Shown in pieces: positions 2 through 14,005 of a stretch of 14,026 bases of DNA. The stretch is from contig JAGCAV010000543.1 of assembly GCA_017652545.1 (NCBI GenBank), positions 1-14,026 of the forward strand, read 5' to 3'. The DNA comes from Lachnospiraceae bacterium (GTDB lineage: Bacteria; Bacillota_A; Clostridia; Lachnospirales; Lachnospiraceae). The notes under the pieces were generated by a model. The model saw only the letters and a list, made by a program, of their open reading frames with translations. It was not told where the DNA came from and did not search any database. A program made the translations under genes and the position numbers. Numbering within the stretch: the first letter of the stretch is position 1; every line of letters begins with the position of its first letter.

Positions 2-949
2 AAATACACCTTTATCCTGTTTCTGGTGACCCAGGCGATCCTGGCCACCCTGCGCTGTGCTGACACAGTGCGGATCGCCTTCATTGTTTCCTGTATCTCC
101 CTTGTCGTAAATGTGGGGATCAACTACTGCCTGATCTTCGGCAAATTCGGCATGCCGGAGCTTGGGATCCGCGGTGCCGCCATCGGCACGCTCATTGCCA
201 GGATCACAGAGCTTGTCATCGTCATCGTCTATGCCCTGAAAGCAGATCAGAAGGTCCGGCTGTTCAGTGAGAACCCGCTCAAGAAAGACCCGGCCATCAG
301 CCAGGATTTCTCCAGGCTGGCGACCCAGATCCTGGTACAGGAACTGTTCTGGGCCGTTTCCATACCGCTGCAGAGCGCGATCCTGGGACACCTGAGTTCA
401 GATGCCATCGCCGCGAACTCCATAGCCACTACCTTCTATCAGTACCTGAAGGTCGTCGTCCGCGCCATGGCCTCTGCTTCAGCGGTCATGATCGGGAGCG
501 CCATCGGACGCGGCAATATAGATGAAGTCAAGGCGGAAGGCAGAACTCTGTCCGTCATCGATCTGATCATCGGGATCATCCTCGGCATCACCCTGTTTGC
601 TCTGCACAGACCGCTCCTGTCCATGTATTCCCTGACCGACACCGCCTACGTGATGACAGACCAGCTGATGATACTGATGTCTTTCCTGATGGTGACGATG
701 GGATACATGATGCCCGTCATGAACGGGATCCTGCGCGGCGGCGGCGATGCAAAATTCACCCTGTATGTGAACATGATCTCGACCTGGGCAATCGTGGTGC
801 CTCTCTCTTTCATGAGTGCATTCTGGTGGAAGCTGCCCGTGGTATGGGTCGTCTTCTTCTCCCAGTCAGATCAGGTATTCAAGGCACCGATCGCCTTTCT
901 GCGCTTCCGCACTTACAAATGGATCCGGAAGCTGACAAGAGATGCTTAA
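2..949 (+). CDS. MATE-family multidrug/Na+ efflux transporter, C-terminal part (5' end outside window)
   Basis: The frame is open from base 2 to the TAA at 947-949, so the start lies beyond the left edge. About 315 residues are visible, while MATE proteins are usually about 450, so roughly the last two thirds is present. The protein is rich in hydrophobic membrane segments. It carries the MATE-like stretch 'NYCLIFGKFGMPELGIRGAA', followed by the second-half repeat with 'ILGHLSSDAIAANSIA' and 'GILRGGGDAKF'. MATE carriers are inner-membrane antiporters that export cationic drugs or metabolites using Na+ or H+ gradients; the substrate cannot be told here. The gene converges on the inositol locus with only 12 bases between the two stop codons, and I see no functional link to it. 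The GTG at 26 is internal and is not a start. Confidence 0.85.
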   Translation, partial: KYTFILFLVTQAILATLRCADTVRIAFIVSCISLVVNVGINYCLIFGKFGMPELGIRGAAIGTLIARITELVIVIVYALKADQKVRLFSENPLKKDPAISQDFSRLATQILVQELFWAVSIPLQSAILGHLSSDAIAANSIATTFYQYLKVVVRAMASASAVMIGSAIGRGNIDEVKAEGRTLSVIDLIIGIILGITLFALHRPLLSMYSLTDTAYVMTDQLMILMSFLMVTMGYMMPVMNGILRGGGDAKFTLYVNMISTWAIVVPLSFMSAFWWKLPVVWVVFFSQSDQVFKAPIAFLRFRTYKWIRKLTRDA

Positions 950-961
950 GTGTTCTGATGC

Positions 962-1780
962 TCAGCCGATCACCCGATCCAGATACTCGATCGCTTTTCT
1001 GGCTGTCAGTTCATTATCCCCTTTCGGGAAGCACTCCACCGTAACATAGCCCTTGTATCCGACCTGCGAAAGCGCCTCGAAGATCGGTTCAAATCTCATT
1101 TCTCCGCTGCCCGGATACCAGCGCTGGCTGTCGGCAATGTGGACATATCCAAGTTTGTCTCCTGCCTGCCGGACCGCTTCCGCCATGTTGTTTTCTTCCA
1201 GCTGCATATGATAAGTGTCCAGATGGATAAAACAGTTGTCCAGACCAAACTCGTCAATGAAGGCAGCTGTCTCGGCACAGGTGGTAAAGAACACCATCTC
1301 ATAGTGGTTGATGACCTCGATGTTGATCCGGACATTCTTTTCCTTCCCGTAGTCATTCAGGATCTTCAGGTTCCGGGCCAGACGTCTCCGGTACAGTTCC
1401 CGGCTTTTTCCCGCAGGCGGATTGCCCCTGCCCCAGCCGATCACGATACCGGCACCCAGTTCTGATGCCATGTCGATATAGGTCTTCATGCCTTCCACAC
1501 AGGCTTTTTCCACATACGGACGGTCGTCGATCAGGCTGCACCCTCCCTCTGTATTAAGCCTTCCGGTGATGATCTGAGATATTTCGATACCGGTCTTTGC
1601 CATACAGCTTCTGATCGCATCCATATCCCAGTCCACGTTCTCTCTCGTGTGGATCTCGATCGCGTCATAGCCCAGTTCTTTTGCTTTCCTCAGGTTTTCC
1701 TCCACACTCCCCTTCAGCAGAAGAGGCGCTGTATCCGGCGCTTCGTCAACAGAGGAAATACCGATCTTCCACTTTCTCAT
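962..1780 (-). CDS. Sugar phosphate isomerase/epimerase-like TIM-barrel protein (AP-endonuclease-2 family)
   Basis: A 272-residue protein of the xylose-isomerase-like TIM-barrel superfamily, which includes IolE, IolI, hydroxypyruvate isomerase and D-tagatose/D-psicose 3-epimerase. Expected metal ligands are visible: E155 ('INIEVINH'), D188 ('HLDTYHM'), H214 ('GYVHIADS') and E249 ('VTVECFPK'). The 'LDTYHMQLEE' and 'HIADSQRWYPGSGEM' stretches resemble the ketose 3-epimerase branch more than IolE. It is the last gene of the minus-strand run, 95 bases after the transketolase C subunit, with two stem-loops in that gap. The ATG at 1780 is preceded by GAGAGG at 8 bases. The substrate is unknown. An inosose isomerase (IolI-like role, letting other inositol isomers enter) or a ketose epimerase acting on a pathway intermediate are both plausible. 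Family call is firm, function is not. Confidence 0.8.
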   Translation of the reverse strand: MRKWKIGISSVDEAPDTAPLLLKGSVEENLRKAKELGYDAIEIHTRENVDWDMDAIRSCMAKTGIEISQIITGRLNTEGGCSLIDDRPYVEKACVEGMKTYIDMASELGAGIVIGWGRGNPPAGKSRELYRRRLARNLKILNDYGKEKNVRINIEVINHYEMVFFTTCAETAAFIDEFGLDNCFIHLDTYHMQLEENNMAEAVRQAGDKLGYVHIADSQRWYPGSGEMRFEPIFEALSQVGYKGYVTVECFPKGDNELTARKAIEYLDRVIG

Positions 1781-1800
1781 TTTCTAACCTCTCATAAAGC

Positions 1801-1817
1801 GGAAACGGGCCGTTTCC
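1801..1817. other. Short perfect stem-loop before the last gene
   Basis: GGAAACG and CGTTTCC are perfect inverted arms of 7 bases around a GGC loop. It sits between the larger stem-loop at 1823-1862 and the start of the isomerase gene. No T-run follows on either strand, so it is not a classical terminator. It may affect mRNA stability or processing. Confidence 0.45.
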
Positions 1818-1822
1818 CTATT

Positions 1823-1862
1823 GACAAGACAGCGGGGGATCCGACTCCCCCGCTGACCTGTC
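1823..1862 (-). terminator. GC-rich stem-loop after the transketolase genes; possible attenuator
   Basis: The inner stem is perfect: CAGCGGGGGA (1830-1839) pairs with TCCCCCGCTG (1846-1855) around a 6-base loop. It extends after a small internal loop by GACA/TGTC. This would be a very stable RNA hairpin 13 bases beyond the transketolase C stop codon. There is no clear T-tract after it on the minus strand, so full intrinsic termination is doubtful. Partial termination, or 3'-end protection that sets a lower level of the last gene, is more likely. Confidence 0.45.
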
Positions 1863-1875
1863 TTCACTGACCTTT

Positions 1876-2817
1876 TCAGGCTTTCAGCTCGCGCACCACT
1901 CTCGCGATGTGATCACATGTCAGGTCAAAGCGTGTCCGCAGGTAGTCCTCCGGACCAACCTCGCCGAATTCATCCTCAACTGCCACATAACCGAACTTAA
2001 GCGGCATGCCGATCAATGCATCCTGTACAGCGCTTGTCAGTCCGCCGATCTTATTGTGATTCTCGGCAGAGACAACGATACCGGTCTTCGCAGCATATTC
2101 GCGGATCAGCTCCCCATCCAGAGGCTTCACGGTGATCGGATCGATCACGGCTGCTTCAATGCCTTCCTCCGCAAGAGCTTTGGCTGCCTGCAGGGCTTCA
2201 TGGACCATGATGCCGCTGGCAACGATCAGGGCATCTGAACCCTCACGGACAACAACGCCCTTTCCGGGTGTGAAGGAACTTCCATCGGCGTAGATCTGGT
2301 AGGATCCTTTTCTGGGGGTACGGATGTATTTCACGCCCGGCATATCCTTTGCCTTGCGGATTGCGTCGATCAGCATCGGAACGTCTGTGATGTCATAAAC
2401 CGTTGCCTCGGGGATGGCGCGGTACAGTGCCATATCTTCAAAAGGCATATGTGTTCCGCCATTGAAAGCTGCCGTAATGCCGGCATCTGTCCCGACAATG
2501 GTGATCGGATTCTTTGCATAGGCGGCTGACATGAACACCTGGTCGAAGCAGCGCCTGGAGGCAAAGGGACCAAAGGAGTGGGCGTAGGGTTTCATGCCGG
2601 AAGCTGAAAGTCCGGCCGCAATACCGGCCATGTTGGCCTCGGCAATACCGCAGTTGATATAGCGGTCTCCCTGCCCTTTTGCAGTGCCGCTGCAGCCCAT
2701 CAGGTCGGCATCAAGCCATACGACCTTATCGTCTTCCTTCATGAGCTCATCGATCGTCGCAGCGAGCGTGGCATTTAACATTCTGGTATCTTTTGTTCCG
2801 TTATATACGATATTCAT
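1876..2817 (-). CDS. Transketolase, C-terminal subunit (split transketolase)
   Basis: A 313-residue protein carrying the pyrimidine-binding and C-terminal domains of transketolase. E60 in 'GIAEANM' is the glutamate that activates thiamine diphosphate; 'CFDQVFMSAAY' (90-100) lines the cofactor pocket; the C-terminal domain spans about 190-313. Split transketolases work as a heteromer with the N subunit, which lies immediately upstream with 11 bases between stop and start. The strong AGGAGGTGAC site overlaps the upstream TAG, suggesting translational coupling. Ordinary transketolases have a histidine and a Glu-Asp pair in the 'H-D/A-S/G-I...GED-G-x-THQ' loop; here the loop reads 'DAGITAAFNGGTHMP' (111-125), so the sugar-phosphate-contacting histidine is D111 and Glu-Asp is F118-N119. 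This suggests an altered substrate. I infer cleavage of 2-deoxy-5-keto-gluconate; ordinary pentose-phosphate work is the alternative. Confidence 0.9.
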   Translation of the reverse strand: MNIVYNGTKDTRMLNATLAATIDELMKEDDKVVWLDADLMGCSGTAKGQGDRYINCGIAEANMAGIAAGLSASGMKPYAHSFGPFASRRCFDQVFMSAAYAKNPITIVGTDAGITAAFNGGTHMPFEDMALYRAIPEATVYDITDVPMLIDAIRKAKDMPGVKYIRTPRKGSYQIYADGSSFTPGKGVVVREGSDALIVASGIMVHEALQAAKALAEEGIEAAVIDPITVKPLDGELIREYAAKTGIVVSAENHNKIGGLTSAVQDALIGMPLKFGYVAVEDEFGEVGPEDYLRTRFDLTCDHIARVVRELKA

Positions 2818-2828
2818 TCCGTCACCTC

Positions 2829-3665
2829 CTATGCGTTCATGGCTTTCTGAGCGTCATGCAGTTCCTTCAGCCATTCATCGAACACTTCCGGAGCCACGTT
2901 CATGGAATGATTCTTCGCAGTCTGTTCAACTGCCGTCACACCCTTGCCCTTGACGGTATCCAGAATGATTGCGATCGGCTTATCGGTGGCAGTACGGGTC
3001 AGGGCTTCATACAGTTTCTCCACATCATGGCCATCTACAGTACAGGCATCAAAGCCAAACGCTGCGAATTTTGCCTCCAGATCGCCGGTGTCAAGAACAT
3101 CCTTTGTGTAGCCGTCCAGCTGCCGCTTGTTCCAGTCGATCAGCCACACCAGATTGGTCAGCTTCTTTGCTGATGTAAACATGGCTGCTTCCCATACCTG
3201 ACCTTCATTGATCTCACCGTCGCCTACGACCAGGAAGGTGCGGCAGTCTCTGCCCTGCAGCCTGTCGCCCAGTGCCAGGCCGACAGCTGTTGATGTGCCC
3301 TGTCCAAGGGAACCTGTGGTCATGTCAACACCGGTCGTCTTGTTCCTGTCGCAGTGGGAGGGAAGATCCGTTCCGGGCTGGTTGAGCGTCATCAGTTTTT
3401 CATACGGGAAATATCCCTTCAGCGCAAGTGTCGCATAGACAGCGGGACCTGCATGGCCTTTGGAACAGACCAGCTTGTCACGGTCCGCCTTTGTCGGATC
3501 CTTAGGATCTATATTCATGACACTTCCATACAGAACAGCCAGCACATCAGCCACAGAAAGGCTTCCGCCAATGTGGCCGAAACCTCTGGACTTAATGCAT
3601 TCGACCGTACCGATCCTGATCTGCAGGGCAAACTCCTGCAGTTTCTTAATTTCTTCTTTTGTCAT
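2829..3665 (-). CDS. Transketolase, N-terminal (thiamine diphosphate-binding) subunit
   Basis: A 278-residue protein equal to the N-terminal PP domain of transketolase. Visible motifs: H31 in 'GHIGGSLS', H71 in 'SKGHAGPAVYA', 'TGSLGQG' (117-123), and the thiamine diphosphate/Mg2+ motif 'GDGEINEGQVWEA' (148-160) completed by 'DWNKRQLDG' (177-185). I chose the ATG at 3665 because GGAG lies 6 bases before it and the protein then begins 'MTKEEIKKLQ' like other N subunits. Upstream in-frame ATGs (to 3725) would overlap the malic enzyme end and add an unrelated 20-residue leader. The partner C subunit follows directly. Such split transketolases serve the pentose phosphate pathway, and in some clostridia split enzymes serve dedicated sugar pathways (for example the sulfoquinovose transketolase route). 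Placement in an inositol locus suggests a dedicated role. Confidence 0.9.
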   Translation of the reverse strand: MTKEEIKKLQEFALQIRIGTVECIKSRGFGHIGGSLSVADVLAVLYGSVMNIDPKDPTKADRDKLVCSKGHAGPAVYATLALKGYFPYEKLMTLNQPGTDLPSHCDRNKTTGVDMTTGSLGQGTSTAVGLALGDRLQGRDCRTFLVVGDGEINEGQVWEAAMFTSAKKLTNLVWLIDWNKRQLDGYTKDVLDTGDLEAKFAAFGFDACTVDGHDVEKLYEALTRTATDKPIAIILDTVKGKGVTAVEQTAKNHSMNVAPEVFDEWLKELHDAQKAMNA

Positions 3666-3708
3666 AGTCATCTCCATTAAAATGATGTTCGGAAAATAAC
3701 ATTTTCCA

Positions 3709-4881
3709 TCAAATCCTTGCCACACCTGATCTTACTGCCGCTTCTGCCACAGCCTTTGCCACAGCGTCTCCAACCCTGGGATCGAATGCCTTTGGGATAA
3801 TATAATCAGCATTCAGCTCCTCATCGGAGATCAGCCCGGCAAGCGCCTCGGCAGCTGCCATCTTCATTTCCTCGTTGATGTCGCTCGCGCGCACATCAAA
3901 GGTGCCCCTGAAGATACCGGGGAACGCCAGCACATTGTTGATCTGGTTCGGGAAGTCGCTGCGGCCTGTGGAAATAACGGCAGCACCGCCCGCCTTCGCG
4001 TCATCCGGGAAGATCTCCGGTGTGGGATTCGCGCAGGCAAACACAATGGCATCCTTGTTCATGGTCTTTACCATCTCTGTCGTCACCGTTCCAGGTGCAG
4101 ATACACCGATGAAGACATCTGCCCCGACCAGCATATCGGCAAGCGAACCGGCCTTCTTTTCAAGATTCGTCTTCAGCGCCATCTCTTCCTTGATCCAGTT
4201 CAGGCCTTCCCTGCCCTCATAGATCGCGCCCTTGCGGTCGCACATGGTCACATTCTTAAAGCCGGCGGACAGAAGAAGCTTCACGATCGCCACAGCCGCG
4301 GCGCCGGCGCCTGAAGTAACGATCTTTACGTCCTCTTTTTTCTTCCCGACGACCTTCAGCGCATTGGTCAGTCCTGCCAGTGTGATCACGGCTGTTCCAT
4401 GCTGGTCATCGTGGAAAATGGGAATGTCGCACCTTTCCTTCAGCTTGCGCTCGATCTCAAAGCAGCGGGGTGCTGCGATGTCTTCCAGGTTGATCCCGCC
4501 GAAGGAGCCGGAGATCTGCCAGACCGTCTCGACAAACGCGTCAACGTCTTTTGTCCGTACACACAGCGGGAAAGCATCCACGCCGCCAAAGGCCTTGAAC
4601 AGAACGCATTTGCCTTCCATGACAGGCATGCCCGCCTCCGGGCCGATATCTCCGAGTCCCAGCACGGCGCTGCCGTCCGTGATGACCGCACACAGATTGT
4701 GGCGGCGGGTCAGTTCATAGGATTTTCCGATGTCCTTCTGAATCTCCAGGCAGGGCTGCGCCACACCCGGGGTGTAAGCAAGGGACAGATCATCTTTGGT
4801 CGCCACGGGTACCGTTGCCACCACTTCAATCTTGCCCTTCCACTCTCCGTGCAGTCTCAATGATTCTTTTGCGTAATCCAT
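3709..4881 (-). CDS. Malic enzyme (oxidative decarboxylation of L-malate to pyruvate)
   Basis: A 390-residue short-form bacterial malic enzyme giving pyruvate, CO2 and NAD(P)H. Visible: tyrosine in 'LAYTPGVAQP' (Y36), lysine in 'MEGKCVLFK' (K91), metal ligands in 'NLEDIAAPRC' (E133, D134) and 'IFHDDQHGTA' (D158, D159), and the nucleotide loop 'GAGAAA' (191-196) followed by 'CDRKG' whose aspartate suits NAD+. I prefer the ATG at 4881. The GTG four codons earlier (4893) overlaps the AAAGGGG ribosome-binding sequence and would leave none for itself. The gene sits between the LarA racemase and the split transketolase. Malic enzymes normally use L-malate, so a racemase next door fits a pathway that forms D-malate. 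An ordinary anaplerotic malic enzyme is the alternative. Confidence 0.93.
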   Translation of the reverse strand: MDYAKESLRLHGEWKGKIEVVATVPVATKDDLSLAYTPGVAQPCLEIQKDIGKSYELTRRHNLCAVITDGSAVLGLGDIGPEAGMPVMEGKCVLFKAFGGVDAFPLCVRTKDVDAFVETVWQISGSFGGINLEDIAAPRCFEIERKLKERCDIPIFHDDQHGTAVITLAGLTNALKVVGKKKEDVKIVTSGAGAAAVAIVKLLLSAGFKNVTMCDRKGAIYEGREGLNWIKEEMALKTNLEKKAGSLADMLVGADVFIGVSAPGTVTTEMVKTMNKDAIVFACANPTPEIFPDDAKAGGAAVISTGRSDFPNQINNVLAFPGIFRGTFDVRASDINEEMKMAAAEALAGLISDEELNADYIIPKAFDPRVGDAVAKAVAEAAVRSGVARI

Positions 4882-4949
4882 ACGCCTTATCACCCCTTTC
4901 GATAATATAAGTCTAAGTCACATCTGTTTGTTCTGTATTTTATAAAAGA

Positions 4950-5020
4950 GTGAAGAGTTAAGAGTGGAGAGTTGAGTTAAAAGTATGGAAACTCTTTACT
5001 CTCCACTCTTCATACTCCAC
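4950..5020. repeat. Long imperfect inverted repeat of GAGTGAAGAGT-type units
   Basis: AAGAGTGGAGAGT (4960-4972) is perfectly matched by ACTCTCCACTCTT (4998-5010). Pairing continues inward (GAGTT/AACTC) and, with mismatches, outward to about 4950 and 5020, giving a hairpin with an 11-base loop. It fills half of the 145-base gap between the LarA stop and the malic enzyme start. The arms are built from GAGTGAAGAGT-like units, and a related CTCTTCACT stretch occurs between iolB and iolE. On the minus strand the stem is followed only by a weak T-rich stretch (CTTTTATAAAAT). It could be a dispersed intergenic repeat, a weak terminator or an mRNA stability element. Confidence 0.6.
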
Positions 5021-5026
5021 ATTGAT

Positions 5027-6277
5027 CTACTGAGGCGGCATCGGCAGTGTCGCGCCGCCGAACGGCATCGCGATGACAGTCGCATCTTCTCCATACCGGG
5101 CCATCGCCTCATCAAAGGCTGTCTGGGCATCCGGCTGCGGATTCAGAAAGATGCTTCGCACAAAGTCATCATCCATCTCGCTCACCAGGTCGATCTGCGC
5201 GTTCTCAAGCACCATGCCGATGGCAGCCGCCTTGTGTCCTCCCAGCTGGAAATCCCGTCCGATCCGTTCCACCATAGCATGCGCTGTGGGAGAACCGACC
5301 AGCCATTCCTCAAACTTCGCACTGCCAAGTCCTTCGTTGCATGCGCCGATCACGATCATGGTGCCGCCCTTCTTCACCGCATGCTTGGCATTGTCCAGCG
5401 CTTTCTGGGTCTGATACAGATTGGCGTCCTTCGGTGCTCCGCCCTGGGAGACCAGCACGATATCCGCACGCTGCGGGATCGGCTTGCGATACATTTTATC
5501 CAGATAGGCGCAGCCTGCACGGTGGGCCGTAATCACATCGCCGGCAACCGCATATACAATGTGCTTATGTTCATCCAGCACCGCGTTCACGATAAAGTGG
5601 ATCGGGCACACAGCCAGCGCCTCTTCCAGATCCTGGCGGACCGGATTGCCCTCCAGTTTTCCGGCACAGGCGTCGGGCGAAACCATGAGGGAATGATTGC
5701 ACTGGATAGCCGCAGGTGTGGAAACACCCGGCATGAGCGCTTTCACGCCGCCGGAATATCCGGCGAAATAGTGAAACTCAATATTGCCCAGCGCAACGCG
5801 AAGATCTGCCTGAGCGACATTTCTGTCAAAGTCAAAGGGTGTTCCGTTTGAAGAGCTTCCCATGTGGATACAGTCATTCGGATCCGAATCGATGCAGCGG
5901 ACTTTTCCGAAGGCGTAATCTCCTGCCAGGCGTTTCCGTTCCTCCTCCGTATGAGGTCTGTGGGAACCCAGGGCAAATACCACCGTAATATCCTCATCGG
6001 GAACCCCTGCAGCGTTCAGCTCATCGATCACCCCGGGCAGCACATCATAGCTCGGGAGAGGCCGGGATATATCGCTGGTGATGACAACCACCTTCTGACC
6101 CGGTTTCGCGATCTCCTTCAGGCGTGGGGAACCGATCGGATTTTCCAGTGCGTATCTGACAGCATCTGCTCCCCGGCGTTCATGCTCCATCTCGTTCGCG
6201 GTCAGAATCGCCAGGAGATTCTTTTCGGGCACCTCCACATTCTGGACACCTTTTCCGTAGCCAAATTCTATTTTCAT
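5027..6277 (-). CDS. LarA-family nickel-pincer hydroxyacid racemase (candidate malate racemase)
   Basis: A 416-residue LarA homologue (DUF2088). Active-site landmarks of lactate racemase are all present: D69 and R72 in 'SDISRPLPS', H106 in 'GSHRPHT', H169 and cofactor-linking K179 in 'EFHYFAGYSGGVKALMPG', H195 in 'QCNHSLM' and K292 in 'LYQTQKAL'. The family uses a covalent nickel-pincer nucleotide made by LarB, LarC and LarE, which are not in this window, to epimerise 2-hydroxyacids by hydride transfer. Different members act on lactate, malate, hydroxyglutarate, phenyllactate or gluconate. The ATG at 6277 is only 2 bases beyond the PGK stop, with GGAG inside the PGK end, so the two are tightly coupled. 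Since malic enzyme follows, D-malate/L-malate racemisation is my best inference; lactate racemase is possible but no lactate gene is nearby. Confidence 0.88.
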   Translation of the reverse strand: MKIEFGYGKGVQNVEVPEKNLLAILTANEMEHERRGADAVRYALENPIGSPRLKEIAKPGQKVVVITSDISRPLPSYDVLPGVIDELNAAGVPDEDITVVFALGSHRPHTEEERKRLAGDYAFGKVRCIDSDPNDCIHMGSSSNGTPFDFDRNVAQADLRVALGNIEFHYFAGYSGGVKALMPGVSTPAAIQCNHSLMVSPDACAGKLEGNPVRQDLEEALAVCPIHFIVNAVLDEHKHIVYAVAGDVITAHRAGCAYLDKMYRKPIPQRADIVLVSQGGAPKDANLYQTQKALDNAKHAVKKGGTMIVIGACNEGLGSAKFEEWLVGSPTAHAMVERIGRDFQLGGHKAAAIGMVLENAQIDLVSEMDDDFVRSIFLNPQPDAQTAFDEAMARYGEDATVIAMPFGGATLPMPPQ

Positions 6278-6279
6278 TT

Positions 6280-7536
6280 TTACTTTGCTCCAAATGTTGC
6301 CGCAGCGTGACGCAGCGCCTTAACGACCGGCAGTTCCTCCCCGGTCAGGAAACGGATCAGCGCTCCGCCACCGGTGCACACATATCCGAGTTTGTCAGTC
6401 ACCTTATACTTCTTCGCAGCCGTGACGGAATCTCCGCCGCCCACCACTGTGTAGGCCGCTGTCTCGCCCAGCGCCTCAAAGATCGCCTTCGTGCCGGCTT
6501 CCGTTAAGGCTTCCTCAAAGATGCCCATCGGTCCGTTCACAAATACCGTCTTTGCTGCGGCGATCTCTGCGCAGTAGCTTTTGATCGTCTCAGAGCCGAT
6601 ATCCACAGCCGTAAAATCATCCGGGACATCATCCAGCGCATATTCCACCCGCTGTCCGTTCAGCGTGCCGGCCACATCCACCGGAAGGGCGATCCTGTCC
6701 GGATAAGCCTCATAGAGCGCTTTCGCCTTTGGAATATATTCCTCGTAATTCTTCGCGTAGATGAAATCCACGCTGCCCTTGCCGATCTTCTTCCCGACAG
6801 CATGCAGCAGGATATTTCCGGCCAGACCGCCGGTGAGCACCCTGTCAGCGCTTCCGCTCTTCAGGACGGTTTCCATCATAATGAAGGCATCGCTGATCTT
6901 GGATCCGCCCAGGACGAACACGCAGGGTTTTTCCGGCGCTTCCATCAGTTCCGAGATCACACAGTATTCCTTCTCAAACAGCCGCCCCATGGCGGAGGGA
7001 AGCACCTGCTCAAAACCGCAGAGCGTCGGCTGATCCCTGTGGGCAGCGGCAAAAGCGTCGCACACATACAGATCGCCCAGCGGCGCCAGCTTCGTGACTA
7101 CCTGGGTCTTCGCCTGCTCCTCATGGGTCAGTTTCAGCTTCAGTTCAAACAGCGTCTGTTCCTCGGAGCAGAAGCGTACGTTATCCAGAAGAATGATATC
7201 TCCGTCTTTCATCTGAGCGATCGCTTCGCGGGCTGTCGGACCGCAGACATCCTCCACCCACTTTACTTCTTTGCCAAGCAGGCCGGAAAGGACCTTCGCG
7301 TGAGGCCTGGTACAGTAGAAATTCTGATATTCGATATCGCTTCCCTGATGCGCCATCACCACAACTTTTGCGCCGGCATCTGACAGTTCCTTCAACGTCG
7401 GTGCGAACGCTTCGATCCGCTGTGTGCTCTTAAGGGAATCGTTCGCTTTATCTACCGGCTGGTTCAGGTCCGCCCTGCAAAGCACTGTTTTTCCCTTCAG
7501 TTCAAATTCGTCAATCGTGTTGATTCCAAAACGCAT
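6280..7536 (-). CDS. Phosphoglycerate kinase homologue, archaeal-like, with altered substrate site
   Basis: A 418-residue protein with the whole PGK fold: N-terminal substrate domain (1-190) and C-terminal nucleotide domain (about 200-400). Conserved: R21, D23, N25 ('RADLNQP'), R40, H63, R121 ('DNVRF'), R167 ('AAAHRDQP'), K213 ('GGSK'), 'NGPMGIFE' (334-341) and 'GGGDS' (366-370). 'DAFAAAHR', 'VLPSAMGR' and 'TGGLAGN' resemble archaeal PGKs. One key position differs: the usual 'H-L/Q-G-R-P' reads 'HQGSD' (63-67), so the arginine that contacts the phosphate of 3-phosphoglycerate is S66, and the 'HR-A/S-H' region reads 'HRDQ'. PGK normally makes ATP from 1,3-bisphosphoglycerate. Here I infer it may use an acyl phosphate with a carboxylate tail (D-malyl phosphate). 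AGGAG precedes the ATG at 7 bases. An ordinary PGK remains possible. Confidence 0.88.
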   Translation of the reverse strand: MRFGINTIDEFELKGKTVLCRADLNQPVDKANDSLKSTQRIEAFAPTLKELSDAGAKVVVMAHQGSDIEYQNFYCTRPHAKVLSGLLGKEVKWVEDVCGPTAREAIAQMKDGDIILLDNVRFCSEEQTLFELKLKLTHEEQAKTQVVTKLAPLGDLYVCDAFAAAHRDQPTLCGFEQVLPSAMGRLFEKEYCVISELMEAPEKPCVFVLGGSKISDAFIMMETVLKSGSADRVLTGGLAGNILLHAVGKKIGKGSVDFIYAKNYEEYIPKAKALYEAYPDRIALPVDVAGTLNGQRVEYALDDVPDDFTAVDIGSETIKSYCAEIAAAKTVFVNGPMGIFEEALTEAGTKAIFEALGETAAYTVVGGGDSVTAAKKYKVTDKLGYVCTGGGALIRFLTGEELPVVKALRHAAATFGAK

Positions 7537-7567
7537 GTCTTATCTCCTCTGCCATGAAACAGCATAT

Positions 7568-7596
7568 TCCGGCCTGCGCGCCGTGCGCAGGTCGGA
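7568..7596. other. Stable 12-bp stem-loop between the GAPDH and PGK homologues
   Basis: TCCGGCCTGCGC and GCGCAGGTCGGA pair over 12 positions with one G-T pair around a 5-base loop. It lies in the 91-base gap between the two genes. No T-run follows on the minus strand, so it is not a standard terminator. It could act as an mRNA processing or stability element that sets different levels of the two enzymes. Confidence 0.55.
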
Positions 7597-7627
7597 ACTG
7601 TCTGTCAGGTGTACGGCTGTTTCGCCA

Positions 7628-8686
7628 TTATTTTTTGAACTTGCCGATACCCAGATACTTGTTGGTTTCAGCGGTGCCTTCTTCACGGGTCAGCTGCATC
7701 TTCATGGCTGCGCGGATGGCGTCCATGGTCTCCGGAATGGTCACGCTCTCCTGCGGGATGTTGATGGCATACATGATGTCGTTGCCGGACTCGACAATGG
7801 AATCCTCCCAGAGGCCGATCTCATACATGTCGCCGCGGCGGTTGCCCAGATCCCTTGCATACTTGAACAGGGAAGCATTGCCCTTGAAGCCTTCGTCGAT
7901 GTTGACGACGCGGATACGCGGATGCTTCTGGAATGCAGCCAGAGCCTCTTCTCTCGTGATCTTCTTTCCGTCCTTGCCGGAGGCGACGACCGTGATGATA
8001 TGGCCGTGGGTCACCGGTGTATGGACCAGGATACCGGTGGCATGCACGTGCGGCATGATGGTCATCAGGTCGACCGCCTGATGGGACGGAGCCTTGTCCA
8101 TCTGCAGCGCGTTGGTCAGTCCGCGATGATAGTCGCCGGGATCCGCAACGCGGCGGATGATCGTGATCGCGACCTTCTCTACGCCGACAGCACGGTCAAG
8201 GCAGTCAACCGTACGGATCAGGCCGGTGGTGTTGCAGGAGGTAAGCTTCAGGTAATCCTGCCCGACACCCTTCTCGAAGTTCGCATAGCCATGGAAGAAA
8301 ACATCCGCAACAGAGTTCTTCTCGCCGCCCTGGAAGATCGCCTTCACGCCGTACTTCTCATAATAGTTTTCCTTATTCTTTGCGCCTACGCCGCCGGGAG
8401 CGGAGTCAAGCATGATATCAACCTTCTGGCACAGGTCAGCGAAAGTGCCTGCCACCGGGATATCCTTTGCCGCAAACGCAGCTTCATCCGCACCGTCAAC
8501 CAGGTAGAGGTTGTACTTCACGCCGTTCGCGCCGATCATGTCTCTCTCACGAAGTGCCTGCAGTGACAGAGTGGGGGCCAGGTCAGCAATACCGACCAGT
8601 TCCATGTCTCCCTGCTGGGCAACGCCGTCTGCCAGACGCTGTCCGATCGTACCGTAACCTGCTACACCAACTTTAATCTTTGCCAT
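7628..8686 (-). CDS. Type II (archaeal-type) glyceraldehyde-3-phosphate dehydrogenase homologue
   Basis: A 352-residue protein of the archaeal-type (type II) GAPDH family, unlike the type I enzyme used by most bacteria. Visible: Rossmann start 'KVGVAGYGTIGQRLADGVA' (5-23), 'GGEK' (120-123), catalytic C151 in 'TSCNTTGLIRT', and 'IIRRVADP' (176-183). At the end of the second strand 'GIADLAP' has D35 where methanogen enzymes carry basic residues, which favours NAD+ over NADP+. The family's 'RRGADP' reads 'RRVADP' and 'SHHGPD' reads 'SHQAVD' (201-206), so residues around the catalytic histidine region have changed. The family oxidises glyceraldehyde 3-phosphate with phosphate to an acyl phosphate. 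I infer D-malate semialdehyde as the substrate here. AAGGAG lies 7 bases before the ATG. The PGK homologue follows, so the acyl phosphate can be handed on. Confidence 0.9.
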   Translation of the reverse strand: MAKIKVGVAGYGTIGQRLADGVAQQGDMELVGIADLAPTLSLQALRERDMIGANGVKYNLYLVDGADEAAFAAKDIPVAGTFADLCQKVDIMLDSAPGGVGAKNKENYYEKYGVKAIFQGGEKNSVADVFFHGYANFEKGVGQDYLKLTSCNTTGLIRTVDCLDRAVGVEKVAITIIRRVADPGDYHRGLTNALQMDKAPSHQAVDLMTIMPHVHATGILVHTPVTHGHIITVVASGKDGKKITREEALAAFQKHPRIRVVNIDEGFKGNASLFKYARDLGNRRGDMYEIGLWEDSIVESGNDIMYAINIPQESVTIPETMDAIRAAMKMQLTREEGTAETNKYLGIGKFKK

Positions 8687-8782
8687 TTTTTCGCTCCTTT
8701 CCTGTTTAGAAAATAAGTGACTGATACTGAATTGATATGATTTCTGTATAAATAATAATGTGCTTACCCCGGTCAGATCTCT

Positions 8783-9682
8783 TTATAATCCTGTCTTTTC
8801 CGCGATGTACTTTCTCGCCCTGATGGCATACTCGAGCGGATTGGCCTTCGCCGGATCCTGCTCTGCTTCAACCAGCATGTAACCTTCGTAGTCAGCTTCC
8901 TCCAGTGTTTTGAAGATCGGCTCAAAATCGATGCAGCCGTCACCGGGGATCGTGAAGGCACCGGCTCTGACGCCGTCCAGGAAGCTCATGTTTTCCTTTG
9001 TGACCTTCTCCACGATTTCCGGACGGATGTCCTTCAGATGAACGTGTTTGATCCTGTCAATGTACTTTTTGACCATGGCGACGGGGTCTTCCCCGGAGTA
9101 GGCAAAGTGACCCGAATCATAGAGAAGAGAAACATACTCCGGATCCGTTCCGTCCATCAGACGCTGTGTCTCCGCATCGGTCTGCACCACGGTACCCATA
9201 TGGTGATGGAAGGTCAGGCTGATGCCGTACTCCTCCTTCGCGATCTTTCCGAGCCTGTTCAGGCCGTCGCAAAGCAGTTTCCATTCGTCATCATTCATCA
9301 CATACTTGTGTCCGAAGATCGGTGTGTCCAGCTTGCCCTGCACACTGTGGCTCTGCTCCGAGAAGCCAATGATCTTTGATCCCATGGCCTTCAGGAAAGC
9401 CAGCTGCTCCCGGGCGGCCTTCTCCACTTCCTCGAAGGGCTGTGAGATCAGGAAGGATGAGAACCACTGGTTGCAGATCTCAATCCCGCGCAGATCCAGG
9501 GCCTTTTTCAGCACTTCGGGATCCTTCGGATATTTGTTGCCGACCTCAGACCCGGTAAATCCTGCCAGCGCCATCTCCGATACGCACTGCTCAAAGGTAT
9601 TCTCCGCGCCAAGATCCGGCATGTCATCGTTTGTCCACGCGATGGGCGCGATGCCCAGCTTTACCTTTTCTTTGTTAAGCAT
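8783..9682 (-). CDS. iolE: IolE, 2-keto-myo-inositol (inosose) dehydratase
   Basis: A 299-residue TIM-barrel lyase that removes water from 2-keto-myo-inositol to give the diketone used by IolD. It matches IolE end to end: 'KLGIAPIAWTNDDMPDLG' at the N terminus, 'TFHHHMGTVVQTDAET' (157-172), 'LLYDSGHFAYSGEDP' (186-200), 'RIKHVHLKDIRPE' (210-222), 'IPGDGCIDF' (245-253) and 'VEAEQDPAKANPLEYA' (271-286). D189, a histidine of 'HVHLKD' and a glutamate of 'VEAE' are likely metal ligands. Length is typical (about 297-300). GGAG lies 8 bases before the ATG. It is third in the iolD-iolB-iolE run, 113 bases after iolB. The call separates it clearly from the other TIM-barrel protein at the left end of the locus, which lacks these motifs. 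Confidence 0.95.
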   Translation of the reverse strand: MLNKEKVKLGIAPIAWTNDDMPDLGAENTFEQCVSEMALAGFTGSEVGNKYPKDPEVLKKALDLRGIEICNQWFSSFLISQPFEEVEKAAREQLAFLKAMGSKIIGFSEQSHSVQGKLDTPIFGHKYVMNDDEWKLLCDGLNRLGKIAKEEYGISLTFHHHMGTVVQTDAETQRLMDGTDPEYVSLLYDSGHFAYSGEDPVAMVKKYIDRIKHVHLKDIRPEIVEKVTKENMSFLDGVRAGAFTIPGDGCIDFEPIFKTLEEADYEGYMLVEAEQDPAKANPLEYAIRARKYIAEKTGL

Positions 9683-9699
9683 GCTCTTTTCTCCGTTCT

Positions 9700-9785
9700 C
9701 TAATATAATTTTTTTATTTTGTTGTTCTGTTTCCGGACTTCAGAATGTTCTCTTCACTTTACGTTCTTTTCACTTCACTCTTTTG
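9700..9785 (-). repeat. iolB-iolE gap with imperfect tandem repeat AAGTGAAAAGAAC/AAGTGAAGAGAAC
   Basis: On the minus strand two 13-base units, AAGTGAAAAGAAC and AAGTGAAGAGAAC, follow each other with three bases between (about 9747-9775), after a further AAGAGTGAAG. The units belong to the same GAGTGAAGAGT family seen at 4950-5020. An A/T-rich stretch (about 9702-9720) lies nearer to iolE. I see no convincing hairpin or promoter in this 113-base gap. Confidence 0.4.
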
Positions 9786-9795
9786 ATCTGCCCGG

Positions 9796-10593
9796 TCACG
9801 CCTTGATGTCCGCCTCATGCAGCCATACATAGCGCTCGTCTTCACACCGGTCCGTCTGCAGCCAGGGGTTTCCCTCAAGATGGCGGATCATCCACACGGT
9901 GTACATCTGGTAACCGGGTGCCACAGCCTGGGGATGAAGCGCTCCGCCCGGGATCGCGGAGAAACTTCCGTCCGTGCTCTTGAATACTTCATCGCCGACA
10001 AAACTTGCGCCAAATCCTTCCGGATGATCAAATTTAAAGTAATATGTCTCCGGCTGCGGATGCCTGTGGGGAAGATAGCCCGACCAGTTCCCCGGATCAT
10101 TGAGTACTTCGCCCAGCACCATATTGGAGACCGGGTTGATGTCATGATCAAAGATCGTATTCACGCGGCGCTTGGCCACATTTCCGAACTTGCCCTTGCA
10201 GGAGTATTTCCAGGGAGCATCCTCCGGCGCGTACAGCTTCGACGGGAAAGCCGCCTCGTTCTTCGTACGCTGGACAAGGATTTCGCTGTCCTCCTGCGCA
10301 GTTACCTTCACAGCTGTGTTCTGTGCCACATGGATCGCCCAGGGTCCCTCTGTGAAAACGCCTTCCCTGGAGACTGTCTTTTCCTGTCCCTCCCATGCAA
10401 AGGTCAGAACACCTGACATCAGCAGCACGGCGGTCTCCTCACCTGCGAAGCAGAATTCCCGGGACTCGCCTGCCTTCATGCGGTACACGCGGATATCCAT
10501 CAGCATGTCGCGGTACTCGTTGTCGTAGGTGGTCAGCACCTGTTCGCCGTTCTCATCGAATTCGGGATAGCCAAACAACTTCTTTTCCATCAT
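9796..10593 (-). CDS. iolB: IolB, 5-deoxy-glucuronate isomerase
   Basis: A 265-residue two-cupin protein that isomerises 5-deoxy-D-glucuronate to 2-deoxy-5-keto-D-gluconate. The second cupin holds the metal site: H176 and H178 in 'YLPHRHPQPETYYFKF', E182, and H220 in 'IPGGALHPQAVAPGYQMY'. These agree with IolB's 'PHKH...E..YY' and 'GYHPV.AAPGY' signatures. Length is close to the usual 270. It lies 29 bases after iolD, and AGGAGG precedes the first ATG (10593) by 8 bases; the second ATG immediately after is less well spaced. Its product is the last shared intermediate before the classical route needs the kinase IolC and aldolase IolJ, neither of which is found in this window. Confidence 0.93.
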   Translation of the reverse strand: MMEKKLFGYPEFDENGEQVLTTYDNEYRDMLMDIRVYRMKAGESREFCFAGEETAVLLMSGVLTFAWEGQEKTVSREGVFTEGPWAIHVAQNTAVKVTAQEDSEILVQRTKNEAAFPSKLYAPEDAPWKYSCKGKFGNVAKRRVNTIFDHDINPVSNMVLGEVLNDPGNWSGYLPHRHPQPETYYFKFDHPEGFGASFVGDEVFKSTDGSFSAIPGGALHPQAVAPGYQMYTVWMIRHLEGNPWLQTDRCEDERYVWLHEADIKA

Positions 10594-10622
10594 ATCGACT
10601 TCCTCCTGATTAACACCAATGA

Positions 10623-12554
10623 TCAGTATTTTCTTGCCTCAGCTCTGTATTTCAGGACTTCATCCGCTGCTTCCCTGACGCTCTCGCTTGTGGACTCCAT
10701 GGCCATACCCACATTCCACCAGGCGTCGTAGCCGTCTGTCATGGTCTTCGGAACGATCTTCAGATCGAACAGGCAGGGCAGTGTCTGCTTTCTCGAGTCA
10801 AGGATGGCATCCTTCAGTTCCTGTGCGCTGCGGCAGGCATAGGTCTTCATGCCGTAGGCTTCGCCGATCTTTGTATAATCCATCGGGATCAGGTTTCCGG
10901 TGGGCTTCATGCCGTCCGTATAGCGGAACTCAGTTGCCAGGGAACCGATGCCGTGGGTCATCTCCAGGTTGTTGATGCAGCCGAAACCACAGTTGTCGAA
11001 CACCAGGATGTTGGTCTTGACGCGCTCCTGCATGATGGTTCCGAGTTCGGAGTTGAGCATCTGGAAACCGGCATCGCCAACGACTGTATACTCTTCCACA
11101 TCAGGCTCTGCCATCTTGACACCCATGGATGCGCCGATCTCATAGCCCATGCAGGAATAGCCGTACTCGACATGATAACCGCCGCGCTTATTGGTCTTCC
11201 ATACACGCTGCAGATCGCTGGGCAGGGAACCGCCGGCTGTCACGATGATGTCATTCTCGCCGATATTGGCCCGGATCGTGGCAAGGGCTGCGGTCTGGGT
11301 CAGGGAAGTCCCGTACATCTTATAGAATTCCGGGATTGTCCTGGGATCACGCGCGGAGATCATGGGTTCAAAATCCTCGCCTGTGCAGGCAATGGCACCG
11401 ATCCGCTCAAGTTCCTCATCCCATTCCTTCCTGGCATCAGCGATCTCATTGGTATATGAAGATCTGTAACCGCGTTTCTCAAGCTCCTGCGTGAGCGCCT
11501 CGAGCGTCGCCTTCGCGTCGCCGACAGCCTTTACGGCATCATATTTATAGGCATGGTAGCGGTTATTGTTGATGGTCACGAATTTCACATCCGGGTTGCG
11601 GAACAGCCACTTGGAGCTGGTGGTAAAGTCGGTGAGCCTGGTGCCCACGGCGATCACGCAGTCAGCCTCCGGGGCCAGCTTGTTCGAAGCGGAAGTACCG
11701 GTCACGCCGATGCCGCCCAGACAATACGGGCTGTCGGATCTGCAGGCGCTCTTTCCGCCCTGGCTTTCACCGAACGGGATGTTGAACTGTTCGCAGAACT
11801 GTTCCATGGTTTCGCCTGCCAGAGAATATCTCACACCGCCGCCCACGATCACGATGGGCTTTTTGCTGGCCGCGATCACATCCGCGATATCCCCGATCTC
11901 CTCCGCCGGAGCAACCGGTCTGGTGATCCTGTGGACTCTTTTTTTGAAGAAATATTCCGGATAATCGAATGCCTCTCCTTCCACATCCTGCGGCAGGGCG
12001 ATGCACACCGCGCCGGTCTCCGACGGATCCGTCAGCACGCGCATGGCATTGATCAGCGCCGTCATCAGCTGTTCCGGCCTGACAACGCGGTCCCAGTACT
12101 TTACGACGGGTTTGAAAGCGTCGTTCGTTGTCGTCGCCAGGGAAGTGCTCTGCTCCAGCTGCTGCAGCACGGGATCCGGCTGCCTGGATGCATATGTATC
12201 AGACGGGAACACCAGCAGCGGGATGTTATTGACCGTTGCTGTTGCACAGGCGACGACCATGTTGGCTGCGCCGGGTCCGATGGATGATGCACAGGGAATG
12301 ATCTTTTTTCTGTCGTTCTGCTTCGCGTAGGCAATGGCGCAATGGCACATGCCCTGCTCGTTGCGGCCCTGCATGACCTTGATGCTGCCGTTATCCGAGT
12401 CAAGCGCTTCACCCAGGCCGACTGCGATGCCGTGTCCGAACAGGGTGAAGAAAGCCTCTACAAACTTTGTCTCCTCCCCGTCCATCGCCACATACTGCTG
12501 GTCCAGGAATTTGACGATCGCCTGCGCTGTTGTCAGTCTGATTGTTTTTTCCAT
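10623..12554 (-). CDS. iolD: IolD, 3D-(3,5/4)-trihydroxycyclohexane-1,2-dione hydrolase
   Basis: A 643-residue thiamine diphosphate enzyme of the acetolactate synthase superfamily that opens the diketo ring made by IolE to give 5-deoxy-D-glucuronate. Catalytic E66 lies in 'QGRNEQGMCHCAIAYAKQ'. The central domain contains 'IVGGGVRYSLAG' (236-247). The C-terminal PP domain has the cofactor motif 'GDAGFQMLNSELGT' (493-506) ending at 'DNCGFGCINN' (520-529). 'GQFPSD'-like 'AGGSLPSDLQRVW' and 'EYGYSCMGYEI' are characteristic of IolD rather than acetolactate synthase. Length equals the family's (about 637-645). It is the first structural gene after the predicted promoter; AAGGAG lies 10 bases before the ATG. 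Acetolactate synthase is the only rival and is unlikely given iolB and iolE next to it. Confidence 0.95.
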   Translation of the reverse strand: MEKTIRLTTAQAIVKFLDQQYVAMDGEETKFVEAFFTLFGHGIAVGLGEALDSDNGSIKVMQGRNEQGMCHCAIAYAKQNDRKKIIPCASSIGPGAANMVVACATATVNNIPLLVFPSDTYASRQPDPVLQQLEQSTSLATTTNDAFKPVVKYWDRVVRPEQLMTALINAMRVLTDPSETGAVCIALPQDVEGEAFDYPEYFFKKRVHRITRPVAPAEEIGDIADVIAASKKPIVIVGGGVRYSLAGETMEQFCEQFNIPFGESQGGKSACRSDSPYCLGGIGVTGTSASNKLAPEADCVIAVGTRLTDFTTSSKWLFRNPDVKFVTINNNRYHAYKYDAVKAVGDAKATLEALTQELEKRGYRSSYTNEIADARKEWDEELERIGAIACTGEDFEPMISARDPRTIPEFYKMYGTSLTQTAALATIRANIGENDIIVTAGGSLPSDLQRVWKTNKRGGYHVEYGYSCMGYEIGASMGVKMAEPDVEEYTVVGDAGFQMLNSELGTIMQERVKTNILVFDNCGFGCINNLEMTHGIGSLATEFRYTDGMKPTGNLIPMDYTKIGEAYGMKTYACRSAQELKDAILDSRKQTLPCLFDLKIVPKTMTDGYDAWWNVGMAMESTSESVREAADEVLKYRAEARKY

Positions 12555-12849: not shown

Positions 12850-13938
12850 TCATCTCTCCCTTCCCGGAGATGTATATTTTGTCCGAATGGTAATATCTGT
12901 ATAAATGTACTCTTCTGCCGGCTGGCGCCCGCTCCGGAGCAGCCCGGCCAGTGTCAGGACAGACCGGTATCCCTGGTTGTAGCCATCCTGGTCGATCACA
13001 AAATCCACAATATCCGTTTCCAGAAGAAGGCGGTTCTTCGACGTCAGGTCATAGATGACCACATAGGGTCTCTTTGTCTGTGTACGTGAAGCCATTGCCT
13101 TTCTGACTTCCTCATCTTCAAACGCATCCTGAATGCCGAGCTGCCCGTTGGAAACCATCACGATCCCCCCAAGCTCAGGATTGTTCAGAATCGCGTTTTT
13201 GATGATGGCAGCCACGTTTTCCCTTTCATACATGCTCGGGATAACACCCGTCAGCGTAATGCCCGGAAAGCTTGCCGCCAGTTCCTCTGAAAAACCGTTG
13301 ACCCGTCCCAGGTTTGTGCTGTTGGAAAAACTGCCGATCACGCCCAGCACGCTTCCCGTACCCCGCATCAGCGTGCCCAGGAGACCGGCCGCAGCCCGGC
13401 CTCCCTGCTGGTTATCCATGCCGATAAACGCGAGACGATGCACACCGACGATATCCGTATTAAAGGTCACGATCGGTATCCCTCTTTCTTCTGTCAGACG
13501 CAGAAGCCGTTCCCTGACGCCATCGCACTCCACAGGCATGATCGCCAGCGCGTCGATTCCCATCTCCATCAGTTCGTCCAGCGCTGCGCACTGCTGCTTC
13601 TCATCCACATCCAGGCATTCCCGGACGATCACTTCTATGCCGTACGCTTCAACCTCCGTGGCAGCTTCTTCAAATCCCCGTCTGATCAGCTGCATAAAGG
13701 AAGCGTCAGCCAGCTGTGTCACGATGCCGATCTTCCAGACACCTCCGGACGATGCGAGAATCTGCTGGGCGCGAAGATTCTTTTTTTCTGATTTTGTCAG
13801 GTAACCGACTTCACGGGCTGCCTCTCTCACCCGCTCCGCAACTTCATCCTTTACCCGACCGCGGTTATGCAGAACCCTGTCAACGGTCCCCCGTGAGACC
13901 CCTGTCAGTTCTGCGATCTGCTGCATTGTACCGGCCAT
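12850..13938 (-). CDS. LacI-family transcriptional regulator, likely local regulator of the inositol locus
   Basis: A 362-residue protein with an N-terminal LacI helix-turn-helix (residues 5-27, 'MQQIAELTGVSRGTVDRVL' then 'HNRG') and, from about 68 ('WKIGIVTQ'), a periplasmic-binding-protein-like sugar-sensing domain ('PIVTFNTDIVG', 'FIGMDNQQGGRAAAGLL'). I chose the ATG at 13938: GGGAGGAAAC precedes it at 8 bases and the protein then starts like other LacI members. The upstream in-frame ATG at 13971 would add 11 odd residues. The hinge 'GYLTKSEKKNLRAQQ' lacks the usual ARxL. It is the first gene of the minus-strand run, and repeated half-sites occur before both it and iolD, suggesting autoregulation plus control of the operon. 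Inositol or an early intermediate is the likely effector (inference). Repressor versus activator cannot be told. Confidence 0.9.
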   Translation of the reverse strand: MAGTMQQIAELTGVSRGTVDRVLHNRGRVKDEVAERVREAAREVGYLTKSEKKNLRAQQILASSGGVWKIGIVTQLADASFMQLIRRGFEEAATEVEAYGIEVIVRECLDVDEKQQCAALDELMEMGIDALAIMPVECDGVRERLLRLTEERGIPIVTFNTDIVGVHRLAFIGMDNQQGGRAAAGLLGTLMRGTGSVLGVIGSFSNSTNLGRVNGFSEELAASFPGITLTGVIPSMYERENVAAIIKNAILNNPELGGIVMVSNGQLGIQDAFEDEEVRKAMASRTQTKRPYVVIYDLTSKNRLLLETDIVDFVIDQDGYNQGYRSVLTLAGLLRSGRQPAEEYIYTDITIRTKYTSPGRER

Positions 13939-14005
13939 GTCCGTTTCCTCCCGACCTCCGATGAAAAACACTCAAAAAACTATCCTGCAGCTCTCATTTC
14001 CATGA

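Follow-up and report, generated by a model that had tools for sequence, protein, structure and literature searches.

A cluster of genes in a 14,026-nucleotide stretch of DNA from a Lachnospiraceae bacterium (positions 1 to 14,026 of contig JAGCAV010000543.1, assembly GCA_017652545.1; hereafter the window) very probably encodes a form of inositol breakdown that would dispense with the kinase IolC. A transketolase would instead cut 2-deoxy-5-keto-D-gluconate, and the resulting fragment would enter a malate branch formed by homologues of glyceraldehyde-3-phosphate dehydrogenase (GAPDH), phosphoglycerate kinase (PGK), LarA and malic enzyme. The gene content, its recurrence, the scarcity of IolC in related genomes and a set of residue changes are observations, from which we infer each substrate and the flux.

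IolE, IolD and IolB convert inosose to 2-deoxy-5-keto-D-gluconate, and the members of these families identified here by computation would do the same, with IolB as the weakest assignment. Viewed from C6, the IolB product is a D-threo ketose, as are fructose and xylulose 5-phosphate, and without its C2 unit it becomes (R)-3-hydroxy-4-oxobutanoate, whose oxidation yields D-malate. This stereochemistry was worked out by hand, and the derivation independently confirms the Fischer projection in an earlier note on this DNA, which had recognized the 3S,4R pattern required by transketolase. Cleavage of 2-deoxy-5-keto-D-gluconate by the split transketolase would release D-malate semialdehyde, and the C2 unit would pass to an aldose phosphate acceptor, probably glyceraldehyde 3-phosphate; the xylulose 5-phosphate formed in this way would enter the non-oxidative pentose phosphate pathway. 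The GAPDH homologue would oxidize (R)-3-hydroxy-4-oxobutanoate, a carboxylate counterpart of D-glyceraldehyde 3-phosphate, forming NADH and an acyl phosphate, whose phosphate group the PGK homologue would transfer to ADP, leaving D-malate. LarA would then convert D-malate to L-malate, from which malic enzyme would produce pyruvate and CO2. By this scheme no ATP would be used before cleavage and one would be gained at the PGK step per inositol.

All the genes lie on the minus strand, in a run that begins with iolD at 12554 and ends with an IolO-like gene at 962; between these come, in order, iolB, iolE, type II GAPDH, PGK, larA, malic enzyme and the two halves of the transketolase. Open reading frame coordinates and profile scores bear out the earlier note, which had named all of these on one strand except the gene at the 962 end; its span of 962 to 12554 does hold the named genes, but it also includes the IolO-like gene (962–1780) that the note left unnamed. 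Intergenic gaps of 2 bases (PGK to LarA), 11 bases (between the transketolase halves) and 29 bases (iolD to iolB) suggest that the operon genes share a single transcript. The overlap of the malic enzyme and tktN genes depends on a mechanically chosen start codon and was disregarded; the true start of TktN is probably slightly downstream of the called position 3725.

Two of the upstream enzymes exceed curated cut-offs, as the classical inositol pathway demands: the trihydroxycyclohexane-1,2-dione hydrolase IolD (10623–12554; TIGR04377, 874.5 bits against a cut-off of 715) and the inosose dehydratase IolE (8783–9682; TIGR04379, 424.9 bits against 290). The gene between them (9796–10593) had been called iolB without qualification. 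Its product does match the Pfam KduI/IolB family (169.2 bits), but it is a divergent 5-deoxy-glucuronate isomerase-like member that falls below the TIGR04378 cut-off (96.7 against 205 bits). The histidine, histidine, glutamate and histidine that we take to be its metal ligands are conserved in 42 to 43 of 43 relatives. Among the twelve main open reading frames of the window that were scanned, there was no match to IolC, IolJ or IolG, and IolJ and IolA were not searched for in related genomes.

The same genes recur elsewhere. One GAPDH scan of genome contigs yielded 110 relatives, of which the best 80 (74 to 96% identity) were kept and the genes around them mapped by tblastn, many of the contigs being short. 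According to their record titles the carriers are Lachnospiraceae, other Clostridia, Spirochaetes, Synergistaceae and Coriobacteriia, many of ruminant gut. Around the 80 GAPDH relatives we found PGK in 72 loci, LarA in 60, the C-terminal transketolase subunit (TktC) in 47, IolE in 45, IolB in 44, the N-terminal subunit (TktN) in 44, IolD in 43 and malic enzyme in 32. When only loci spanning at least 9 kb are counted, the same-strand cluster includes an iol gene in 46 of 62. Across the 48 loci that have five or more genes and an iol gene, there are 27 order strings, some of which are truncations. That the same genes recur in so many orders argues that their grouping is more than chance, and the preservation of content while order shuffles argues for a shared function.

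Fifty of the 80 loci, chosen mostly for longer contigs, supplied the genomes in which IolC, IolD, PGK, GAPDH-I and phosphoketolase were counted. IolD is present in 45 of these 50 genomes with operon-type GAPDH at a threshold of 1e-100 (44 above cut-off). The earlier note's route lacked IolC, and this is borne out in the relatives: the kinase falls under its cut-off in 48 of the 50 genomes and exceeds it in two, with none over the cut-off in the three closest relatives (G001–G003). As a control, 295 genomes were taken from the order of G001, and 33 of them carry IolD at 1e-100. Operon-type GAPDH occurs in this IolD group in the centre genome G001 alone, and IolC is above cut-off in 26 of the 33, or 26 of 32 with G001 excluded. 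Fisher's test on IolC (2 of 45 versus 26 of 32) gives p of about 1e-12, a guide only, since the genomes are related, their completeness is unstated and the lineages are unmatched.

Both genomes with IolC (G038 and G044) carry two IolD genes each. In G044, IolC (C5:121437-122381) lies close to one IolD (C5:123376-125211), and a cluster-type PGK (C54:35336-36514) lies near the second IolD (C54:39842-41686) on a separate contig, as if both inositol routes were present side by side. A further IolD, at locus L054 in a genome whose record is titled Coriobacteriia (G034:C29:16878-18785), contains three in-frame TGA codons, which implies either a broken gene or another genetic code.

The GAPDH homologue (7628–8686), proposed to be a phosphorylating D-malate semialdehyde dehydrogenase, belongs to the type II family, scoring 395.4 bits against the NF003251 cut-off of 185 and retaining the catalytic cysteine (Cys151) in 81 of 81 sequences. 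Named proteins among the best 120 of 5596 GAPDH relatives are called glyceraldehyde-3-phosphate dehydrogenase, some with the qualifier type II. In archaeal type II GAPDH the SHHGPD motif probably binds phosphate. This motif, present in the three solved archaeal enzymes compared, is replaced by HQA in all 81 homologues. For this alignment and that of PGK we used sequences that cover over 75% of the window protein and contain no X and at most one stop sign. One GAPDH relative of 508 residues (P0055) also carries a PfkB domain and is either a fusion or an assembly error.

A similar substitution is seen in the PGK homologue (6280–7536; PF00162, 378.5 bits), a proposed malyl phosphate:ADP phosphotransferase. 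In PGK, the 3-phosphate is bound by Arg65, Arg122 and Arg170, and Arg65 also aids domain closure (from excerpts of PMC7729029). The cluster PGKs have serine in 64 and aspartate in 6 of 70 sequences at the position equivalent to Arg65, and they keep Arg122, Arg170 and the remaining substrate-site residues checked, which are invariant. It is through this replacement that they fail the glycolytic basic patch of Arg65, Arg122 and Arg170. Canonical PGKs from ten of these genomes carry lysine (five) or arginine (five) at the same position.

Canonical GAPDH-I is above cut-off in 44 of the 50 genomes, three of the other six having fragments. Two PGK types are likewise present in 44 of the 50, the higher-scoring reaching 434 to 568 bits where uncut versus 340 to 398 for the cluster type; five of the remaining genomes have the cluster type alone and one (G017) the canonical type alone. 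These counts indicate that the operon pair is extra: its GAPDH and PGK are each a second copy whose predicted phosphate site carries changed residues, which backs the earlier proposal that the two convert the transketolase product to D-malate. At locus L073, GAPDH and PGK of the operon type occur in a genome (G045) where neither IolD nor a transketolase of the type described below was found, perhaps because malate semialdehyde has a different origin there, or because of gaps.

The earlier note had LarA racemizing D-malate to L-malate, and the protein (5027–6277) indeed falls within the malate racemase group LarAH6, with 543.2 bits against the curated NF052593 cut-off of 500. It is under the cut-off of the lactate racemase model (329 against 460 bits), and its best solved relative is the malate racemase Mar2 (402 bits, versus 202 for the next). 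The adjacent malic enzyme (3709–4893) was recognized by PF00390 and PF03949.

The transketolase is split into TktN (2829–3725; PF00456) and TktC (1876–2817; PF02779 and PF02780), whose best solved relatives are the N chain of 6yak and the C chain of 6yaj, respectively. The presumed catalytic histidines, whose positions we assigned from general knowledge of the enzyme, are kept in 42 of 42 TktN and 47 of 47 TktC sequences. In the window, the phosphate-orienting motif of TktC reads RCFDR. Among the 47 TktC sequences its aspartate is found in 45, the cysteine in 40, the phenylalanine in 45, the second arginine in 45 and the first arginine in 36; the two without aspartate are probably the 28%-identity matches at L009 and L073. 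A further TktC residue, which we equate with Asp477 of the yeast enzyme, is asparagine in 46 of 47, such that an Asp/Asn pair replaces the usual His/Asp. According to excerpts of PMC11659671, ordinary transketolases carry RSFHR at the phosphate-orienting motif and sulfofructose transketolase carries RAFDR. The shared change from histidine to aspartate backs the earlier suggestion that the operon enzyme acts on 2-deoxy-5-keto-D-gluconate. Since the RAFDR enzyme accepts the C2 unit onto glyceraldehyde 3-phosphate (same source), loss of the histidine does not forbid this acceptor.

Thirty of the 50 genomes were searched for the C-terminal subunit, and 27 carry one with the Asp/Asn pair, including 12 of the 15 genomes whose iol locus is without a transketolase. 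Two further TktC halves with this pair lie at L131 (G028:C2:159299-160195) and L130 (G008:C81:16448-17356); the former has alanine at the serine position, as in RAFDR, and is perhaps a sulfofructose transketolase. Phosphoketolase was considered as an exit for the C2 unit and rejected, as it was found in none of the 50 genomes searched; xylulose 5-phosphate would accordingly have to pass through the non-oxidative pentose phosphate pathway. Taken together, LarAH6 membership, IolC scarcity, the second GAPDH and PGK and the His-to-Asp change support the transketolase route via D-malate semialdehyde that had been proposed for this DNA.

Several points weigh against this interpretation. Its support comes from sequences and genomes, and it is weakest at the IolB assignment, the C2 acceptor and the exception genomes. 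The sub-cut-off score of IolB is repeated in the relative at L012 (97.2 bits), and the LarA of the spirochaete locus L016 reaches 362 bits, short of the LarAH6 cut-off. Malic enzyme was found in 32 of the 80 related loci, and in 16 of the 62 loci that span at least 9 kb the cluster is devoid of iol genes. No Asp/Asn transketolase was found in three of the 30 genomes searched, namely G045 and G047, which have other types only, and G017, which has none at 1e-30; G045 also lacks IolD. Ten other transketolases of these genomes were taken, of which one (L122), read in the wrong frame, was excluded; the nine readable ones comprise five with His/Asp, two with Asp/Asn and two that differ from both, revealing that the Asp/Asn pair marks a wider group and is not unique to the operon. 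Without phosphoketolase the C2 unit has to leave by a longer path. Finally, the genomes are fragmented as well as related, and absences, like the Fisher value, serve as a guide.

The operon could alternatively belong to the classical route, with another PfkB-type kinase and an aldolase encoded elsewhere acting on 2-deoxy-5-keto-D-gluconate, and with the operon GAPDH, PGK, transketolase and malic enzyme simply boosting glycolysis and the pentose phosphate pathway. PfkB relatives do occur in 49 of the 50 genomes at an E-value of 0.001, the best sub-cut-off score being 198.6 bits, and a phosphoglycerate mutase-like gene accompanies about 14 loci. However, PfkB paralogues of 207–213 bits are also present in control genomes that have true IolC, and the classical route does not account for the malate racemase, for the missing phosphate-site arginine of PGK or for the presence of canonical GAPDH and PGK elsewhere in the genomes. 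We consider this explanation distinctly unlikely.

It is very unlikely, in our estimate, that the transketolase feeds the proposed malate branch but uses a different donor or acceptor, such as some other keto acid formed from inositol or an aldehyde that carries no phosphate. Replacement of both the histidine and the serine of the transketolase phosphate site, together with a divergent IolB, would fit such an arrangement, but sulfofructose transketolase, in which His is likewise changed to Asp, takes glyceraldehyde 3-phosphate as its acceptor, and the IolB product has a Fischer pattern that suits transketolase with no additional step. A Thermotoga-type route through 5-keto-L-gluconate, with the gene at 962–1780 encoding IolO, can hardly be correct. 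Although IolO (NF041099) is the best NCBIfam match of this gene, its 212.5 bits fall under the cut-off of 300 and relatives occur in only 4 of the 80 loci, while IolD and IolB are enzymes of the 5-deoxy-glucuronate branch.

This rarity is also why we do not count the IolO-like gene among the core steps of the pathway. Its product, a TIM-barrel protein, is listed as accessory and is likely an isomerase or epimerase of inositol derivatives. Upstream of iolD, a LacI-type regulator (12850–13971, minus strand; PF00356 and PF13407) probably controls the operon, and relatives with 42–44% identity adjoin the cluster in five of the 80 loci (L001–L003, L006 and L029). At the opposite end, a partial MATE-family transporter (2–949, plus strand) is convergent with the operon; a relative with 54% identity adjoins the cluster in L029.

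About a dozen related loci have added upstream phosphatase-like genes that were absent from the earlier account. In L043 (4251-9983), four HAD-family hydrolase genes and a phosphoglycerate mutase-like gene lie upstream of IolG and GAPDH, accompanied by divergent PfkB, PHP and LacI genes; the IolG that adjoins this cluster is above its cut-off. The same type of neighbour set is found in L026, L031, L033, L035, L037, L038, L039, L041, L045 and L049. These neighbours could strip phosphates from inositol phosphates such as phytate, or serve something else. The phosphoglycerate mutase-like protein (L043:7348-8913) shows a circular permutation, in that residues 12-303 align with positions 213-504 at the C-terminal end of the profile and the iPGM_N domain comes after them, at 389-517. 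As proof of plain glycolysis we rejected this gene, because it is permuted, confined to 14 loci and located beside HAD genes, and because LarA would be left unexplained.

The transketolase route proposed here most closely resembles the sulfo-TK pathway of sulfoquinovose degradation (SqwGH), which, as far as excerpts of PMC11659671 describe it, also uses a split transketolase with the His-to-Asp change at the phosphate-orienting site, a proposed unphosphorylated ketose with an anionic tail, and xylulose 5-phosphate fed to metabolism. Here, however, the ketose would be a carboxylate from inositol and not a sulfonate, the motif has cysteine (RCFDR) in place of alanine (RAFDR), and the C4 aldehyde would be oxidized by GAPDH and PGK with ATP gain, whereas there it is isomerized and cut again. 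With the classical myo-inositol pathway (IolG, E, D, B, C, J and A, as outlined in sections of PMC9430895) the operon shares IolE, IolD and an IolB-like enzyme, but the proposed route would proceed without phosphorylation before cleavage, and malate would replace malonate semialdehyde. In L-carnitine degradation, malic semialdehyde is oxidized to D-malate and then to pyruvate (PMC11353897, in part). That route relies on a non-phosphorylating dehydrogenase and D-malate dehydrogenase, unlike the phosphorylating pair with ATP formation, racemase and malic enzyme proposed for the operon.

The earlier note knew of no established description of such a pathway, and we found none in the open-licence PMC literature, subscription papers and preprints being outside that scope. 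The essential core in a survey of 193,757 genomes consists of iolB, iolC, iolD and iolE, and in the passages available a missing fourth gene is blamed on assembly gaps or frameshifts (PMC9430895); with that core, carriers of the present cluster could be overlooked. In the portions available of a 2025 review of gut inositol metabolism, the terms 'transketolase' and 'malate' are both absent (PMC12482443). Excerpts of a 2026 study suspect an unidentified alternative inositol pathway in other organisms (PMC12838507), and those of PMC12130570 place iolD and iolE together with a transketolase that there serves ordinary metabolism. The papers with most occurrences of malyl phosphate, as far as their excerpts go, concern an engineered dihydroxybutyrate pathway. 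The operon LarA, being over the curated cut-off, falls in the same family as Mar2 (LarAH6; PMC7583248); the sections available of that paper leave the cellular role of Mar2 open, and our proposal places the operon LarA in inositol catabolism.

Phytate makes inositol an abundant substrate of plant origin, and the cluster probably represents an IolC-independent pathway by which gut and rumen anaerobes use inositol. It would employ a carboxylate-specific transketolase and a repurposed GAPDH and PGK that carry out a natural substrate-level phosphorylation via malyl phosphate to D-malate, and in some lineages phosphatase-like neighbours may supply it from inositol phosphates. If this is true, there is a natural ATP-making step from malate semialdehyde, malate racemases of the LarAH6 type gain a cellular role previously left open, and in gut and rumen inositol would give malate and pyruvate, not malonate semialdehyde, as its C3/C4 product.

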